Virus record (IMG/VR): IMGVR_UViG_3300025594_000059
Coordinates: 1-22,389 of that record
Origin: a virus
Strand: one strand, 5' to 3'
Length of the DNA stretch: 22,389 bases
The notes beneath the pieces are model-generated. The model was not told where the DNA came from. It was given only the letters and a program-made list of their open reading frames with translations, and did not search any database. Of this stretch, positions 13,243 through 18,058 are shown piece by piece. Each line of letters starts with the position of its first letter. Positions within the stretch are counted from its first letter, which is position 1. The translations under genes were made by a program, and so were the position numbers.

Positions 13243-13470
13243 ATGAGATATTTGGATACATACAATAATACCACACACATGGTTGAATCGATGCTGAGCA
13301 AAGAAGATAATTTGCCCTCAAAGGAGCTATTCGAAACATATTTTAATGGAGTCCTCAAAATAGATTTCCTCAAAGACTACGGAATCGAACTCCAATATAA
13401 TGAGAATTACTCTCATTTGCTCGAAGAATTGAAACGTATTCGTAAGTCATTGATAGCGAACAACTTGTAA
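13243..13470 (+). CDS. Unknown 75-residue protein
   Basis: I do not recognise this small acidic, mostly helical protein (MRYLDTYNNTTHMVESMLSK at the N-terminus; NYSHLLEELKRIRKSLIANN at the C-terminus). It is in the same direction as gp46 and starts 12 bases after it, so it is probably cotranscribed. No Shine-Dalgarno is evident. Its size and position downstream of 46 recall small host-takeover or transcription proteins of T4-like phages, but there is no motif to support that. Its last codons overlap the distal operator-like site of the GIY-YIG gene promoter (13450-13460). Confidence 0.6.
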   Translation: MRYLDTYNNTTHMVESMLSKEDNLPSKELFETYFNGVLKIDFLKDYGIELQYNENYSHLLEELKRIRKSLIANNL

Positions 13471-13517
13471 ACTTTAGGCAAGGCCCGAATTTTCTTTCAT
13501 AACTTATTGATATTCAA
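13450..13517 (+). promoter_or_regulatory. Paired operator-like sites upstream of the GIY-YIG gene
   Basis: Site 2 is TTGATATTCAA (13507-13517), 24 bases upstream of the -35 box measured start to start. Site 1, TTGATAGCGAA (13450-13460), is exactly 57 bases further upstream and has one good half. AACTTGTAAACTTT after site 1 lines up with AACTTATCAATTTT after the matching sites of the other two promoters. Confidence 0.6.
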
Positions 13518-13524
13518 TGAGTTA
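13504..13524. repeat. 21-base inverted repeat, copy 1 (partner at 16204-16224)
   Basis: The 21 bases here are the exact reverse complement of 16204-16224. The core is TTGATATTCAA here and TTGAATATCAA there. Both are operator-like sites, one proximal and one distal in their promoters. Confidence 0.85.
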
Positions 13525-13530
13525 AAGCCC

Positions 13531-13559
13531 TTTACAAAACGGCATTTATGGTATATAAT
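13531..13559 (+). promoter_or_regulatory. Sigma-70-like promoter for the GIY-YIG gene
   Basis: TTTACA (13531-13536), 17-base spacer, perfect TATAAT (13554-13559). The predicted start near 13566 gives about 4 bases of leader. The preceding GAGTTAAAGCC recurs at the next two promoters. Confidence 0.82.
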
Positions 13560-13569
13560 ATACCTATAA

Positions 13570-13872
13570 ATGAGAAAGAAAAGAAAAGATAGAAACTACG
13601 TTTTATACCGTGTGACGATCGGAGCCGACACATATATCGGTCTCACGGTTTCACAAGGCCGAGCATTTTGGAAATCCGTTAAGATTCGTGTTCAGAAACA
13701 CATCTCTCGGGCAATGAAGGAAAACAAGGACTGGACGATGTGCAATGTCATTCGTGCAACAAATGAAACCATCTACTACGAGGTTCTTGAAGTTATTCGT
13801 GGTCGCAAGCCGGCTTATGGCCGCGAGAGAGAACTCATCTCAGAGTTAAATCCATCGCTCAATGATTTTTAA
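13570..13872 (+). CDS. Small single-domain GIY-YIG nuclease-like protein
   Basis: A 100-residue protein consisting of little more than one GIY-YIG domain. VLY at 11-13 stands for the GIY triplet and YIG is intact at 22-24. A conserved Arg lies in VKIRVQKH (residue 40), the metal-binding Glu in GRERELI (87), and Asn in LNPSLN (94). All catalytic positions of the family therefore appear present, so a small DNA-cutting enzyme is plausible. It lacks the DNA-binding tail of homing endonucleases and does not interrupt a gene, so a free-standing role (host DNA degradation, DNA repair or control) is more likely. It has its own strong promoter with paired operator-like sites. Confidence 0.72.
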   Translation: MRKKRKDRNYVLYRVTIGADTYIGLTVSQGRAFWKSVKIRVQKHISRAMKENKDWTMCNVIRATNETIYYEVLEVIRGRKPAYGRERELISELNPSLNDF

Positions 13873-13876
13873 TATG

Positions 13877-13944
13877 TTGACTATCAATGACTTATCAATT
13901 TTTGCAGAGATGAATTATACATATCATAACTCGTTGATACTCAA
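13877..13944 (+). promoter_or_regulatory. Paired operator-like sites upstream of the VWA gene
   Basis: TTGACTATCAA (13877-13887) and TTGATACTCAA (13934-13944), 57 bases apart start to start. The second begins 24 bases before the -35 box. The bases between the two sites differ from the AAA+ gene promoter except next to the sites. Confidence 0.65.
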
Positions 13945-13957
13945 AGACTTAAAACCC

Positions 13958-13985
13958 TTTACAAATCCACAGAACCTGATATAAT
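13958..13985 (+). promoter_or_regulatory. Sigma-70-like promoter for the VWA gene
   Basis: TTTACA (13958-13963), 16-base spacer, TATAAT (13980-13985) preceded by TGA, an extended -10 (TGnTATAAT). The predicted start near 13992 leaves a 12-base leader. From 13934 to 13994 it is nearly identical to 16268-16328. Confidence 0.87.
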
Positions 13986-14003
13986 ATATATATACGATTA
14001 ATT

Positions 14004-16181
14004 ATGAATTACGAACTCCAATCCACCCTCGCCCGCCTTCTAGCCAAAGAGAACATTACTGTGACCCACGGCAACATGAAGACCGCAATGTTTGATGTTA
14101 AGAATCGTGTTCTTGGTTTGCCCATGTGGAAAAATAAGAGCAAAGATGTTTATGATATGTTGGTCGGACACGAAGTTGGTCACGCCCTTTATACGCCCTC
14201 AGAAGGAATCGAAGAATTCCGCAGAAAGTGTGGCGACATTCCATTTGATGTATGCAACATCGTTGAAGATATTCGAATCGAACGAATGATTCAAGATACC
14301 TATCCTGGCTTGCCGCGAGTATTTAAAAAGGCTTATACAGAATTGGTCGAAGATGACTTCTTTGGCACCAAGAAAAAGAACATAGCCGAATGTGGCTTTC
14401 TTGACCGCCTCAATCTACGAGGCAAAGTTGGTTCACTCTTAGCTATTCCTTTGAATGACGATGAAGAGGTGATTTATCAAAAGTGCCTTATGGCTGAGAC
14501 CTTCGATGACGTTATTGAAATTTGTCTAGAGATCAAAGACATGCTTGAGAAAGAGCCGCCGCAACCTCAAAGTGAAGACGCCGACTCTGCTGAAGACGCC
14601 GACTCTGCTGAAGACGCCGACTCTTCTGAAGAAGCCGAAGATTCAGACCCCACGCCGGGCAATGAAGGTGATTCGGAAGACACCGATGGTGATTCAGAAA
14701 CAGATGATGGCGAAGAATCTTTTACTAAGGCTTTCCAAGATGCAATGGAAGATGCGGCGTCTGAAGCCGATACATCCAGTCCCGATATCGAATCTGATTC
14801 AGAAGATGAAGAATCGGTCAACACTGATTCAATTCAGAATGAAGGCGCAGGTGACGGCGTATCAAAGCAATTCAAATCAGAAACCCTTTCAGATTTCGAA
14901 GAAAAACTGGAAGAGACCGTCGAGTCGCCAGAGGACAGAAATTTCACATCAGTGATGCTTCCTCGACCGAATTATATTTATGATGCAATCATTGGTTATG
15001 ATCAGTTGCAAAAGTCGCGCCTCAAATTTTCTTATACAGCTCTTATGAAAAGCAGGCCTGATTATGCCGCTCAGGTAAATGATAGATTCATAACCTTCCG
15101 AAAGACAACCAAAAAGAAAGTTGGAACTATGGTTCGTGAATTCGAACAACGCAAAGCGGCTTATCAATACTCTCGTGCGAAAGAAAGTCGCACAGGCAAA
15201 TTGGATGTTAATAAGTTACATAACTACAAGTTGACCGACGAGATTTTCCTCTCACAAACTAAGTTGGCTAACTCGAAATCGCACGGCATGATTTTTCTAT
15301 TAGACTATTCTGGTTCAATGAGTTCCGTGCTCAAAGATGTGATTGACCAGACTCTCAATTTGGTTACCTTTTGTAAGAAGGTTGGAATTCCTTTTCGAGT
15401 TTATTCCTTCACAAATACATGGGCAACAGCAACCAAAATGACGACTAAGCCCACATTCAATGAGGTCGATTTAGGTGATGTGCTTCTTGTAGAACATATC
15501 ACCAGTGAAATGAATAAAACGAAATATGATGAGGCTTTCAAATCTCTCTGGTGGACAGTGAATAGCTGTGGGGGCAACGCCGGAGATTATGATCAACTTG
15601 GAGGCACACCATTAGATACTGTATTGACCATGATGCCAACAATCTTGACAGATTTTGCTAAGAAAAATGGAATACAGAAAACCACTTTTGTTACCTTGAC
15701 AGACGGTGATAGTGCCCGCCTTAATACTTCACATGAATGGAGTGAGGTGAAGACTTTGAAGAAGATCAAATGCGGTAGTAAGATACACGAAATTCGCAAC
15801 TACACGGCGACGAATGATCTAATGGAAATGATCAATCAATTGCCTGGTATAAACACTATTGGTTTCTACCTTCCTAATCACAAGAAAGCAGTAAACAGAA
15901 TCCTACACCGATTCATTTACAATTCTAAGGATATGCAGAAAGCCAGAAAATTACACGCCAAGAATGGTTTCTCAAGTGTCAAGAATCTTGGCTACGGTGC
16001 CTATTACATTTTAGATTCAGATGTCGGCATCAATGACAGCGATTTCATTACAAAAATCGATGAAGATGCTGCCAACTCTCGAAAGGCTCAAACCAAGCTA
16101 GCAAAACAGTTCGGCGAGCACAATAGAAAATCCCGGCAAACTAGAGTTCTTCTAACAAGTCTTGCTCAACAAATTGCTTAA
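14004..16181 (+). CDS. VWA-domain protein with HExxH metallopeptidase-like N-terminus (CobT-like)
   Basis: A 725-residue protein in three parts. The N-terminus has GHEVGHAL with HExxH at 56-60 and NIVEDIRIERMI at 85-96, the pairing expected for a zinc site with a downstream Glu ligand. A disordered acidic linker runs from about 182 to 300 and includes a triplicated EDADSA unit. The C-terminal half is a VWA domain with a complete metal-binding MIDAS: DYSGSMSS near 434, the Thr of GGTPLD near 535, and the Asp of TLTDGD near 566. CobT of cobaltochelatase and other MoxR partners have this acidic-linker/VWA plan. The CobS-like ATPase follows under a duplicate promoter, so the two probably form one machine. 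Its substrate is unknown. Cobalt chelation is only one option and nothing here proves it. Confidence 0.8.
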   Translation: MNYELQSTLARLLAKENITVTHGNMKTAMFDVKNRVLGLPMWKNKSKDVYDMLVGHEVGHALYTPSEGIEEFRRKCGDIPFDVCNIVEDIRIERMIQDTYPGLPRVFKKAYTELVEDDFFGTKKKNIAECGFLDRLNLRGKVGSLLAIPLNDDEEVIYQKCLMAETFDDVIEICLEIKDMLEKEPPQPQSEDADSAEDADSAEDADSSEEAEDSDPTPGNEGDSEDTDGDSETDDGEESFTKAFQDAMEDAASEADTSSPDIESDSEDEESVNTDSIQNEGAGDGVSKQFKSETLSDFEEKLEETVESPEDRNFTSVMLPRPNYIYDAIIGYDQLQKSRLKFSYTALMKSRPDYAAQVNDRFITFRKTTKKKVGTMVREFEQRKAAYQYSRAKESRTGKLDVNKLHNYKLTDEIFLSQTKLANSKSHGMIFLLDYSGSMSSVLKDVIDQTLNLVTFCKKVGIPFRVYSFTNTWATATKMTTKPTFNEVDLGDVLLVEHITSEMNKTKYDEAFKSLWWTVNSCGGNAGDYDQLGGTPLDTVLTMMPTILTDFAKKNGIQKTTFVTLTDGDSARLNTSHEWSEVKTLKKIKCGSKIHEIRNYTATNDLMEMINQLPGINTIGFYLPNHKKAVNRILHRFIYNSKDMQKARKLHAKNGFSSVKNLGYGAYYILDSDVGINDSDFITKIDEDAANSRKAQTKLAKQFGEHNRKSRQTRVLLTSLAQQIA
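14574..14627 (+). repeat. 18-base tandem triplication in the VWA gene linker
   Basis: Three head-to-tail copies of GAAGACGCCGACTCTGCT start at 14574, 14592 and 14610. The last copy differs by one base (TCT for GCT). They encode EDADSA repeats. Confidence 0.9.
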
Positions 16182-16203
16182 CCAACGAAGTGAACTGGAT
16201 GTC

Positions 16204-16224
16204 TAACTCATTGAATATCAATAA
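16204..16224. repeat. 21-base inverted repeat, copy 2 (partner at 13504-13524)
   Basis: Exact reverse complement of 13504-13524, 2.7 kb away. It contains the distal operator-like site of the AAA+ gene promoter. Confidence 0.85.
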
Positions 16225-16278
16225 CTTATCAATTTTTACTAAAGGTTCGAAACAGTCTTGTAACTATTTGATACTCAA
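16211..16278 (+). promoter_or_regulatory. Paired operator-like sites upstream of the AAA+ gene
   Basis: TTGAATATCAA (16211-16221) and TTGATACTCAA (16268-16278), again 57 bases apart start to start, with the second 24 bases before the -35 box. Confidence 0.65.
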
Positions 16279-16291
16279 AGACTTAAAACCC

Positions 16292-16319
16292 TTTACAAAT
16301 CCCCAAAACCTGATATAAT
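16292..16319 (+). promoter_or_regulatory. Sigma-70-like promoter for the AAA+ gene
   Basis: TTTACA (16292-16297), 16-base spacer, TATAAT (16314-16319) with an extended TGA. The predicted start near 16326 leaves a 12-base leader before the ATG at 16338. Confidence 0.87.
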
Positions 16320-16337
16320 ATATATATAAGATTGATT

Positions 16338-17540
16338 ATGAAAAATACACTAACAAATGAAAATATCGCCTCCATTCACCAAGTGATGGATTTTACTAAA
16401 GCCCCGGTCAAAAAAGGAGCCATCGTCGATGCCGGTGAGAGCCTCGGAATTGATCGTTCTAGCATCCATCGAGCTGTTAATTCAATGTTTTCGAAAACAT
16501 CGAAACGAGGTTACTACACCTTTCCTATTTCCCAAGTCACGGGTGAACCAATCACCGCTGATACTCCGATTTCAGCGCCGGCAAAACCTCCGGCGCCGAC
16601 TCCAGCTGAGAATTTCAAACTGGCGACCACAGTTTCCTCGGTTGTCGATGATGAGATTCACATTCCAACAGTTGACCGCACATATGTCAAGTGGGGTGAA
16701 TTCAAAACCGTGGCTGATATTCTTGCCGCCGGCATTTTCTACCCATTATATATTGAGGGCATGTCTGGCAATGGTAAAACATTCATGGTCGAACAAGCCT
16801 GTGCAAAAGCAAAGCGTGAATATATTCGAGTTCAGATTTCGCCTGAGACGGATGAAGATGATCTTATCGGTGGTTTTCGACTTATCAATGGCGAGACAAT
16901 CTATCAAAAAGGTCCCGTAGTCAAGGCTATGGAACGTGGAGCAGTTCTACTGGTTGATGAAATTGACCGTTCGACTAACAAGATCATGTGCCTCCAAGGG
17001 GTTCTTGAGGGCAATCCTGTTCTTCTAAAGAAGACCGGTGAAGTCATTACTCCAGCTCGAGGTTTTACAGTTATTGCCACCGCAAATACTAAAGGTCGTG
17101 GCTCTGATGATGGCCGATACACCGCCGCAACGATTATCGATGATGCTTTCCTAGAGCGTTTCGTAGCCACAATCGAACAGCAATATCCTGCCCCCGGCAC
17201 TGAGAAAAAGATTTTGGTTAAACACGCCGAAAAATACGAAGTGAATGACCCAGAGTTTATCGATAAGCTGGTCGCCTGGTCAAATGTGATTCGTAAAACA
17301 TTCGCTGATGAAGCCGTGGATGAAGTGATTTCCACTCGCCGTCTCTGCCACATTATAAAGAGCCATTCCATTTTCGCCAATCGCATGAAATCGATTGAGA
17401 TGTGCATCAACCGTTTCGACTCTGAGACCAAGGAAGCCTTCCTTGACCTATACACGAAGATCGATGAGTCCGCTAATTTAGAGGAATTCACTCAAGAGAA
17501 AGAATTTGCCTCCGAGGCTGACAACCACGACATGCCATAA
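16338..17540 (+). CDS. cobS: CobS/MoxR-like AAA+ ATPase with N-terminal helix-turn-helix-like region
   Basis: A 400-residue ATPase. Walker A GMSGNGKT lies at 141-148, Walker B VLLVDEID at 203-210, the sensor 1 segment ATAN at 247-250, and a likely arginine finger in FLERF (271-275). The segment FTVIATANTKGRGSDDGRYT is close to the equivalent part of CobS, the ATPase of aerobic cobaltochelatase. Many T4-like cyanophages carry a gene annotated cobS. Residues about 20-60 (GAIVDAGESLGIDRSSIHRA) read like a helix-turn-helix, followed by a Pro/Ala-rich linker at 70-92. That part is not expected in bacterial CobS as I know it. The ATG at 16338 is chosen over an in-frame TTG at 16332. Ala is mostly GCC here (about 18 GCC to 10 GCT by my count), unlike gp23. 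Confidence 0.82.
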   Translation: MKNTLTNENIASIHQVMDFTKAPVKKGAIVDAGESLGIDRSSIHRAVNSMFSKTSKRGYYTFPISQVTGEPITADTPISAPAKPPAPTPAENFKLATTVSSVVDDEIHIPTVDRTYVKWGEFKTVADILAAGIFYPLYIEGMSGNGKTFMVEQACAKAKREYIRVQISPETDEDDLIGGFRLINGETIYQKGPVVKAMERGAVLLVDEIDRSTNKIMCLQGVLEGNPVLLKKTGEVITPARGFTVIATANTKGRGSDDGRYTAATIIDDAFLERFVATIEQQYPAPGTEKKILVKHAEKYEVNDPEFIDKLVAWSNVIRKTFADEAVDEVISTRRLCHIIKSHSIFANRMKSIEMCINRFDSETKEAFLDLYTKIDESANLEEFTQEKEFASEADNHDMP

Positions 17541-18030: not shown

Positions 18031-18058
18031 TTGACATAAAACCATAACCTGATATAGT
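18031..18058 (+). promoter_or_regulatory. Sigma-70-like promoter for gp45
   Basis: Perfect TTGACA (18031-18036), 16-base spacer, TATAGT (18053-18058) with an extended TGA. The predicted start at about 18065 is one base before the gp45 ATG. Confidence 0.83.

Follow-up and report, generated by a model that had tools for sequence, protein, structure and literature searches.

What are the paired TTGA-N3-TCAA sites that precede three promoters of a T4-like marine phage, and what would read them? The sites lie in a stretch of 22,389 nucleotides (IMG/VR record IMGVR_UViG_3300025594_000059), referred to here as the window. An earlier note had placed the proximal sites at 13507, 13934 and 16268, each 24 bases before a TTTACA hexamer (at 13531, 13958 and 16292), and the distal sites at 13450, 13877 and 16211, each 57 bases further upstream. 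All of these coordinates proved correct, as did the description of the distal copy at 13450 as degraded and lying in coding sequence, its unit (13443-13467) falling inside an ORF that ends at 13470.

The paired 25-bp palindrome in the window and its relatives

Our analysis showed that the actual repeated unit is larger than the TTGA-N3-TCAA core. It is a 25-bp palindrome, TAASTCRTTGA-N3-TCAAYGASTTA, of which the AACTT and TAACT blocks of the earlier note are parts. The 11-mer core alone is common (31 matches at one mismatch or fewer, 25.5 expected), while the 25-mer occurs exactly six times where 0.4 would be expected at an equal threshold, with the same outcome in a PWM scan. The six units form three pairs, each exactly 57 bp apart (Table 1), and every proximal unit begins exactly 31 bp upstream of the -35 hexamer of a sigma70 promoter. 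Promoters throughout are predictions from sequence only; the three that bear units rank highest within the window's right half, with 11 of 12 consensus bases, and the next-best predicted promoter, at 18031, is without a unit. Of the neighbouring gene products, the GIY-YIG-like protein is unusually conserved, with about 75% identity in relatives whose VWA protein shows about 50%.

Table 1. Units, predicted promoters and genes around the three pairs (U1, distal unit; U2, proximal unit).
Feature	Positions	Strand	Remarks
U1, pair 1, TAAGTCATTGATAGCGAACAACTTG	13443..13467	.	right half degraded; within 3' end of ORF 13243-13470
U2, pair 1, TAACTTATTGATATTCAATGAGTTA	13500..13524	.	57 bp from U1
Sigma70-type promoter TTTACA-17-TATAAT (predicted)	13531..13559	+	31 bp after pair-1 U2 start
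GIY-YIG-like protein, 100 aa	13570..13872	+	motif only; no Pfam/PHROG match
U1, pair 2, TAATATGTTGACTATCAATGACTTA	13870..13894	.	overlaps stop codon of GIY-YIG-like gene
Conserved TnAnTTTT block, TCAATTTTT	13895..13903	+	immediately 3' of pair-2 U1; TTT invariant in 22 non-redundant promoters
U2, pair 2, TAACTCGTTGATACTCAAAGACTTA	13927..13951	.	
Promoter TTTACA-16-TATAAT, extended -10 (TGATATAAT) (predicted)	13958..13985	+	31 bp after pair-2 U2 start
VWA-like protein	14004..16181	+	PHROG 459 'peptidase', CobT-like; MIDAS-like DYSGSMS
U1, pair 3, TAACTCATTGAATATCAATAACTTA	16204..16228	.	
U2, pair 3, TAACTATTTGATACTCAAAGACTTA	16261..16285	.	
Promoter TTTACA-16-TATAAT, extended -10 (TGATATAAT) (predicted)	16292..16319	+	31 bp after pair-3 U2 start
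AAA+ protein	16341..17540	+	PHROG 249 (CobS-like)

In 22 non-redundant promoters of relatives of the window phage, the distance between units is 57 bp and that from the proximal unit to the -35 hexamer is 31 bp, with a mean spacer identity of 47%. The information content of the units (1.15 bit per position) exceeds that of the spacer (0.61) and of the sequence upstream (0.26); the palindrome not only recurs beyond chance but is also more conserved in relatives than its surroundings. Unit pairs in the window's relatives are spaced by 57-58 bp, and 18 of the 20 strong predicted promoters in the window group show the offset of 31. The earlier note's impression that the sites are selected is borne out, and so is their reading as protein-type recognition sites, because their spacing and promoter offset are invariant while the spacers have diverged and hairpin covariation is absent (see below). 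Search and alignment in the relatives clearly revealed conservation, and chance frequency is ruled out for the 25-mer.

Recurrence and helical phasing in unrelated phages

The exact palindrome is present in at least 120 stretches among IMG/VR viral contigs, against none for a reversed control, and many of these are in unrelated phages, where pairs have their own preferred spacings of 41-42, 48, 50 or 58 bp. In the unrelated 48-bp group, an offset of 31-32 is seen in 9 of 14 strong predicted promoters (1.5% in a shuffled control). Across the other groups, offsets range from 31 to 94 and are helically phased; an unbiased scan of periods from 6 to 16 gave 10.25-10.5 (R=0.67, empirical p<0.001 for promoters scoring 9 or more). 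Held-out loci replicated this phasing (n=93, period 10.5-10.75, R=0.40, with none of 4000 random sets as high), and their phase matches that of the window. These p-values are optimistic, since loci whose flanks share less than 70% identity may still be homologous. Whether fixed or phased, the position of the unit is thus set relative to the predicted promoters. No units were found in the cultured T4-like phages Melnitz, HTVC008M, S-PM2, RB49 and phi1; a search for cultured relatives that would point to hosts gave no match, or RIIA-like matches only, for large proteins from the 48- and 50-bp groups, and BLAST of the promoter regions against phages returned weak matches only. A search of the literature, motif strings included, turned up no published description of the unit.

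The earlier note had proposed a small regulon with a dedicated activator or repressor. The part that concerns protein-type sites on accessory-gene promoters stands, but 'small' and 'dedicated' do not: other genes of the window's phage group also carry the unit (L242:18435, L244:7915 and L168), as do the many unrelated phages described above.

Paired operators, stem-loops and other readings

We consider it probable that the units serve as paired operators for a dimeric regulator, which contacts RNA polymerase from one face of the helix and thereby modulates accessory-gene promoters. Each 25-bp palindrome would be the operator of one dimeric sequence-specific DNA-binding protein, with each 11-bp half-site TAASTCRTTGA read separately, and two dimers would sit upstream of the sigma70 promoter, separated by a distance that depends on the lineage (57 bp in the window). 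Assuming a start 7 nt after the -10 box, the centres of the proximal and distal dimers would fall near -53 and -110, respectively. Both would lie on the helix face of RNA polymerase, from where they could modulate the promoters of accessory, probably early, genes. Activation is somewhat favoured over repression as the sign of the putative regulator, because the sites are upstream of the core promoter, the phase is kept to about 95 bp and upstream arrays are possible. A precedent for a regulator touching RNA polymerase from a set upstream helical position is protein p4 of phi29, which binds upstream, contacts the polymerase, and activates a weak promoter but represses a strong one (PMC3100819). 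A p4-like repressor may act here instead, as the core promoters are near consensus; p4 itself differs in having other sites and in being phage-specific, and no p4 relative was identified here.

Counting against this model are the near-consensus core promoters, which may work without an activator, a conserved pair of the 48-bp group that lies between convergent genes without a promoter (L206:2837 and its orthologues), the failure to find a candidate regulator gene among the families listed for the scanned phages, and the three window copies, which are alike down to the -10 box, so that shared ancestry accounts for some of this likeness.

An RNA-level explanation would liken the pairs to the promoter-early stem-loops (PeSLs) reportedly described by Arbiol et al. 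(2010) and Comeau et al. (2014) in RB49 and phi1, the paired units being stem-loop arms that terminate the upstream gene before an early promoter. The anatomy is similar (gene end, inverted repeat, near-consensus sigma70 early-type promoter of the form TTTACA-16/17-TATAAT by sequence prediction, accessory region), as are the many copies between T4-like accessory genes. A T-rich block follows U1 in the window group, the spacer between units is GC-rich in the 48-bp group, one pair sits where two convergent genes end, and near-perfect 20-bp arms occur in some relatives (L020, fold z -7.5). We nevertheless think this explanation unlikely, because the folding of the window pairs does not surpass that of shuffled sequences (z of -1.15, -0.69 and +0.30) and base-pair covariation is absent from 189 pairs, in which pairing at most variable positions is no better, and sometimes worse, than in shuffled ones. 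On the grounds of folding and covariation, an RNA stem-loop, terminator or PeSL is rejected as the main reading, despite those near-perfect arms. No terminator-like site was called at the pairs, and an Rfam search gave tRNAs only. Unit pairs also occur between divergent genes, where there is nothing to terminate, and in the 48-bp group a pair so placed can have a promoter at an offset of 31 in each direction (L206:901); a hairpin loop leaves the invariant spacer length and the helical phasing unexplained. PeSLs are elements of the T4-type phages RB49 and phi1 (PMC4503421, PMC3950731); these genomes (NC_005066 and EF437941) contain no unit at three mismatches or fewer. In contrast to PeSLs, the window element is without a conserved stem-loop, consists of two self-palindromic units at fixed spacing, is helically phased to the promoter and shares its sequence with unrelated phages.

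The units might instead bound exchangeable cassettes, as integron- or REP-like recombination sites that shuffle accessory genes between phages. They do lie at gene boundaries within arrays of small accessory genes, sometimes as arrays themselves (L020, L219), and recur in unrelated phages with common cargo (GP88, DUF932, ArdC). A fixed helical phase to promoters would be unexpected for such sites, however, the relatives keep the order of genes that flank the window pairs, no recombinase was noted in the vicinity of these pairs and half-sites vary independently of each other, which makes this quite improbable. Resemblance to integron attC sites likewise fails: the arms do not covary and no integrase was identified in the shared protein clusters, the majority of them unannotated. 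Sites for replication, partition or nucleoid-type binding, intergenic by happenstance, are very unlikely. Such sites would fit the clustering of roughly ten to twenty units over some 10 kb of large phage genomes and the single copies in Fibrobacter and one Akkermansia chromosome, but leave the promoter offset of 31, or 31+10.5n, unexplained. That the three regions are mere recent duplicates of one promoter region, their spacing inherited rather than selected, is most improbable: the VWA and AAA+ regions are nearly identical from -35 to -10, yet the divergence of the spacers disfavours it, spacing being equal in all 22 promoters, and offset or phase being equal in unrelated phages.

The putative regulator and a possible wider regulon

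Which protein would read paired operators of this kind? No regulator gene was found among the families and clusters listed. Pfam and PHROG scans of a set of 104 proteins of phage G008 gave no regulator among the families listed, and the 25 of 51 Pfam families listed included no HTH transcription factors; no protein cluster common to all unit-bearing groups was found. The neighbouring GIY-YIG-like protein was considered, I-TevI being a precedent of autorepression, and rejected, as it has no homologue in unrelated unit-bearing loci. The protein could be encoded by the host, or it could be a phage product that either diverges or is passed from phage to phage.

A host regulator has a precedent in CtrA, whose palindromic sites (TTAA-N7-TTAA) occur in promoter regions of unrelated alphaproteobacterial phages (PMC9437464); the CtrA site is unlike the window unit, whose spacing is much stricter. 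The stoperators of Cluster A mycobacteriophages such as L5 are also many copies of one phage operator across a genome, but they are asymmetric and serve lysogenic immunity (PMC9283540, PMC6550527), whereas the units described here are paired palindromes tied to promoters in a T4-like phage, where a linked repressor gene was not found. Halovirus HF2 has 58-bp intergenic repeats that carry promoters (PMC8707807) and thus resembles the window in its short repeated intergenic promoter elements, although the HF2 promoters are archaeal.

As a rule, a regulatory site goes with a single regulator and a single phage group. Here the same 25-bp paired operator, on the same helix face, occurs in phages with little else in common and so points to a shared controlling protein; we found no description of such a protein for any phage. 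It is possible, and we suggest it tentatively, that one cis-regulatory code, the paired TAASTCRTTGA-N3-TCAAYGASTTA phased to sigma70 promoters, controls host-takeover and anti-restriction cargo (GP88, DUF932, ArdC, CobS/CobT-like) in unrelated environmental phages and is read by a conserved host regulator or one moving between phages, the site being present also in Fibrobacter and some Akkermansia chromosomes. The unit offers a means of predicting promoters and regulons from sequence for many phages that have not been cultured, and raises the testable question of which protein reads it and whether unrelated phages heed the same host signal in switching on anti-defence genes. Given its recurrence, paired and on the same helix face, among many unrelated environmental phages, the site looks like a widespread, previously undescribed switch for phage accessory genes.

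Paired palindromes before three promoters of the window

Paired TTGA-N3-TCAA motifs had been placed by the earlier note at fixed distances before three promoters, and re-measurement reproduced its sites and distances exactly. By itself the 11-base motif is ordinary in the window (31 matches versus 25.5 expected, with at most one mismatch). Alignment of the three regions showed that it forms the centre of a longer palindrome of 25 bp, TAASTCRTTGA-N3-TCAAYGASTTA (the unit), whose outer parts account for the AACTT and TAACT blocks that the note had also singled out. The full unit occurs six times at the same threshold, versus 0.4 expected, and every copy belongs to one of the three pairs, each consisting of a distal (U1) and a proximal (U2) unit; in all three promoters TTTACA begins exactly 31 bp downstream of the U2 start. 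These promoters are the top-ranked in the scanned half of the window, with 11 of 12 consensus bases and, in two of them, an extended -10; the next-best promoter of that half, at 18031, has no unit.

Unit pairs of the window and the genes behind them
Promoter	U1 start	U2 start	-35 (TTTACA)	Product	Gene position	Basis
1	13443	13500	13531	GIY-YIG-like protein, 100 aa	13570-13872	motif only
2	13870	13927	13958	VWA/CobT-like protein		PHROG 459
3	16204	16261	16292	CobS-like AAA+ protein		PHROG 249

The 22-kb contig represents part of a T4-like phage genome, with genes for the major capsid protein, gp46, clamp and clamp loader, and its DNA is weakly similar to Methylophilales phage Melnitz and to cyanophages. 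The GIY-YIG-like protein has no match in Pfam or PHROG; it is about 75% conserved in relatives, versus about 50% for the VWA protein behind it. The end of a 75-aa ORF (KSLIANNL) is encoded within U1 of pair 1, and operator and coding constraints therefore overlap at 13443-13470. The location of this ORF after gp46 suggests that it is a gp45.2-like gene.

Conservation and helical phasing of the pairs

Contigs whose proteins are 48-90% identical to those of the window retain the pairs at 57-58 bp, and pairs exactly 57 bp apart also accompany other genes in this phage group (L242:18435, L244:7915, L168:10523 and 11093). The more distant relatives L022 and L024, read by eye, have apparently only a single or decayed U2, at offset 31. 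Twenty-two non-redundant promoters of the group, admitted only if the pair spacing was 57 bp and the promoter at 31, align without gaps, with 57 bp between units and 31 bp to the -35 in all. Mean information content in this alignment is 1.15 bit for each unit, 0.61 for the spacer and 0.26 upstream; the spacers have a mean identity of 47%, and a TnAnTTTT block directly 3' of U1 is likewise conserved. Five-unit arrays lie upstream of a GIY-YIG-like gene at L219:4578-4812 and L020:31-216, with mixed spacing of about 27 to 79 bp and the final unit 31 bp ahead of the -35.

When promoters were predicted by a simple sigma70 scoring scheme, without preselection, 18 of 20 strong ones in the 57-bp group had the -35 at an offset of 31 from U2, and 9 of 14 in the 48-bp group had it at 31-32 (shuffled flanks, 1.5%). 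Offsets in the remaining groups range from 31 to 94, and an unbiased search over periods of 6-16 bp puts their periodicity at 10.25-10.5 bp (R=0.67 for promoter scores >=9, empirical p<0.001). The phasing was repeated, in the window's phase, at 93 predicted promoters of later-fetched loci with flanks <70% identical to the earlier ones (period 10.5-10.75, R=0.40, reached by 0 of 4000 random sets), these p-values being optimistic because some flanks may still be homologous. One pair can serve divergent genes, with a promoter at 31 on either side (L206:901). A conserved pair also lies between two convergent gene ends (L206:2837; orthologues L205:1154, L250:6503 and L251:10519), flanked on neither side by a strong promoter, and a pure promoter-operator model leaves it unexplained.

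A proposed regulator and the stem-loop alternative

The two palindromes, their independently variable half-sites, the lineage-invariant spacing and the fixed helical face toward RNA polymerase suggest a DNA-binding regulator that acts as a dimer and would bind twice upstream of the promoter. For a transcription start 7 nt downstream of the -10, the centres of the proximal and distal sites in the window would fall at about -53 and -110. We favour activation of the promoters by this regulator, given that the units are positioned upstream of the core promoter, hold their phase to a distance of about 95 bp and can occur as upstream arrays; repression through upstream contact, as with phi29 p4, may apply instead, since the core promoters are near consensus. 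None of the protein clusters is shared by all unit-bearing groups compared, and in phage G008 (172 kb) the Pfam and PHROG matches listed for 104 proteins name no regulator. CtrA provides a precedent for phages using a host regulator's palindrome (PMC9437464).

The promoter-early stem-loops (PeSLs) of T4-type phages, as citing papers describe them (PMC4503421, PMC3950731), are the closest known anatomy. An RNA stem-loop was rejected here as the main reading: among 189 pairs, base pairing within or between units was not above column-shuffled expectation overall, with single positions varying both ways and several clearly below it. The window pairs show no folding advantage over shuffled sequence (z -1.15, -0.69 and +0.30), L020 does (z -7.5), and no terminator-like site was called at the window pairs. 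The element is thus set apart from PeSLs by the lack of covariation, of folding in the window and of a terminator call; the unit was not found in RB49 and phi1, the PeSL type phages.

Distribution across phages, chromosomes and plasmids

An 18-base half of the unit matched at least 119 viral-contig stretches, many of them in phages without visible relation to the window, and the exact palindrome at least 120; the reversed pattern, used as a control in the latter search, gave 0 matches. In large phages, ten to twenty units are packed into about 10 kb, and pair spacing is group-specific (48, 50-52, 57-58 or 41-42 bp). Genes adjoining pairs include those for GP88, DUF932, ArdC anti-restriction and L5-gp82-like proteins. 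In large uncultured freshwater phages of the 48-bp group (L118, L130, L149, L250, L251 and others), a unit-rich region or its surroundings contain plasmid-type genes (ArdC, DUF932, DUF736) as well as genes for RIIB and the clamp loader.

The unit is also present in Fibrobacter MAGs (1-5 per genome) and, in several copies, in one Akkermansia MAG; it was found in 0 of 38 other genomes of the latter's phylum. These chromosomal units (L223-L241; G019-G025), here palindromes of 27 bp, stand as single copies, usually intergenic and adjoining varied genes, and may reflect either the regulator of the phage units or convergence. Plasmid BPP5P1 of B. parapertussis Bpp5 has a near-perfect unit, TAAGTCGTTGAAAATCAACGACTTA (L258:3001-3032), and the IncW plasmid R7K one that differs from it by one base (L259:3001-3032); both units (score 34-41 bits) lie in the presumed oriT region, adjoining a GC-rich inverted repeat, and are possibly a coincidence.

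The small regulon proposed in the earlier note was right in kind and too narrow, the unit being present in many unrelated phages as well. The observation behind it is sound, and understated: its worth lies in one operator code common to unrelated phages.
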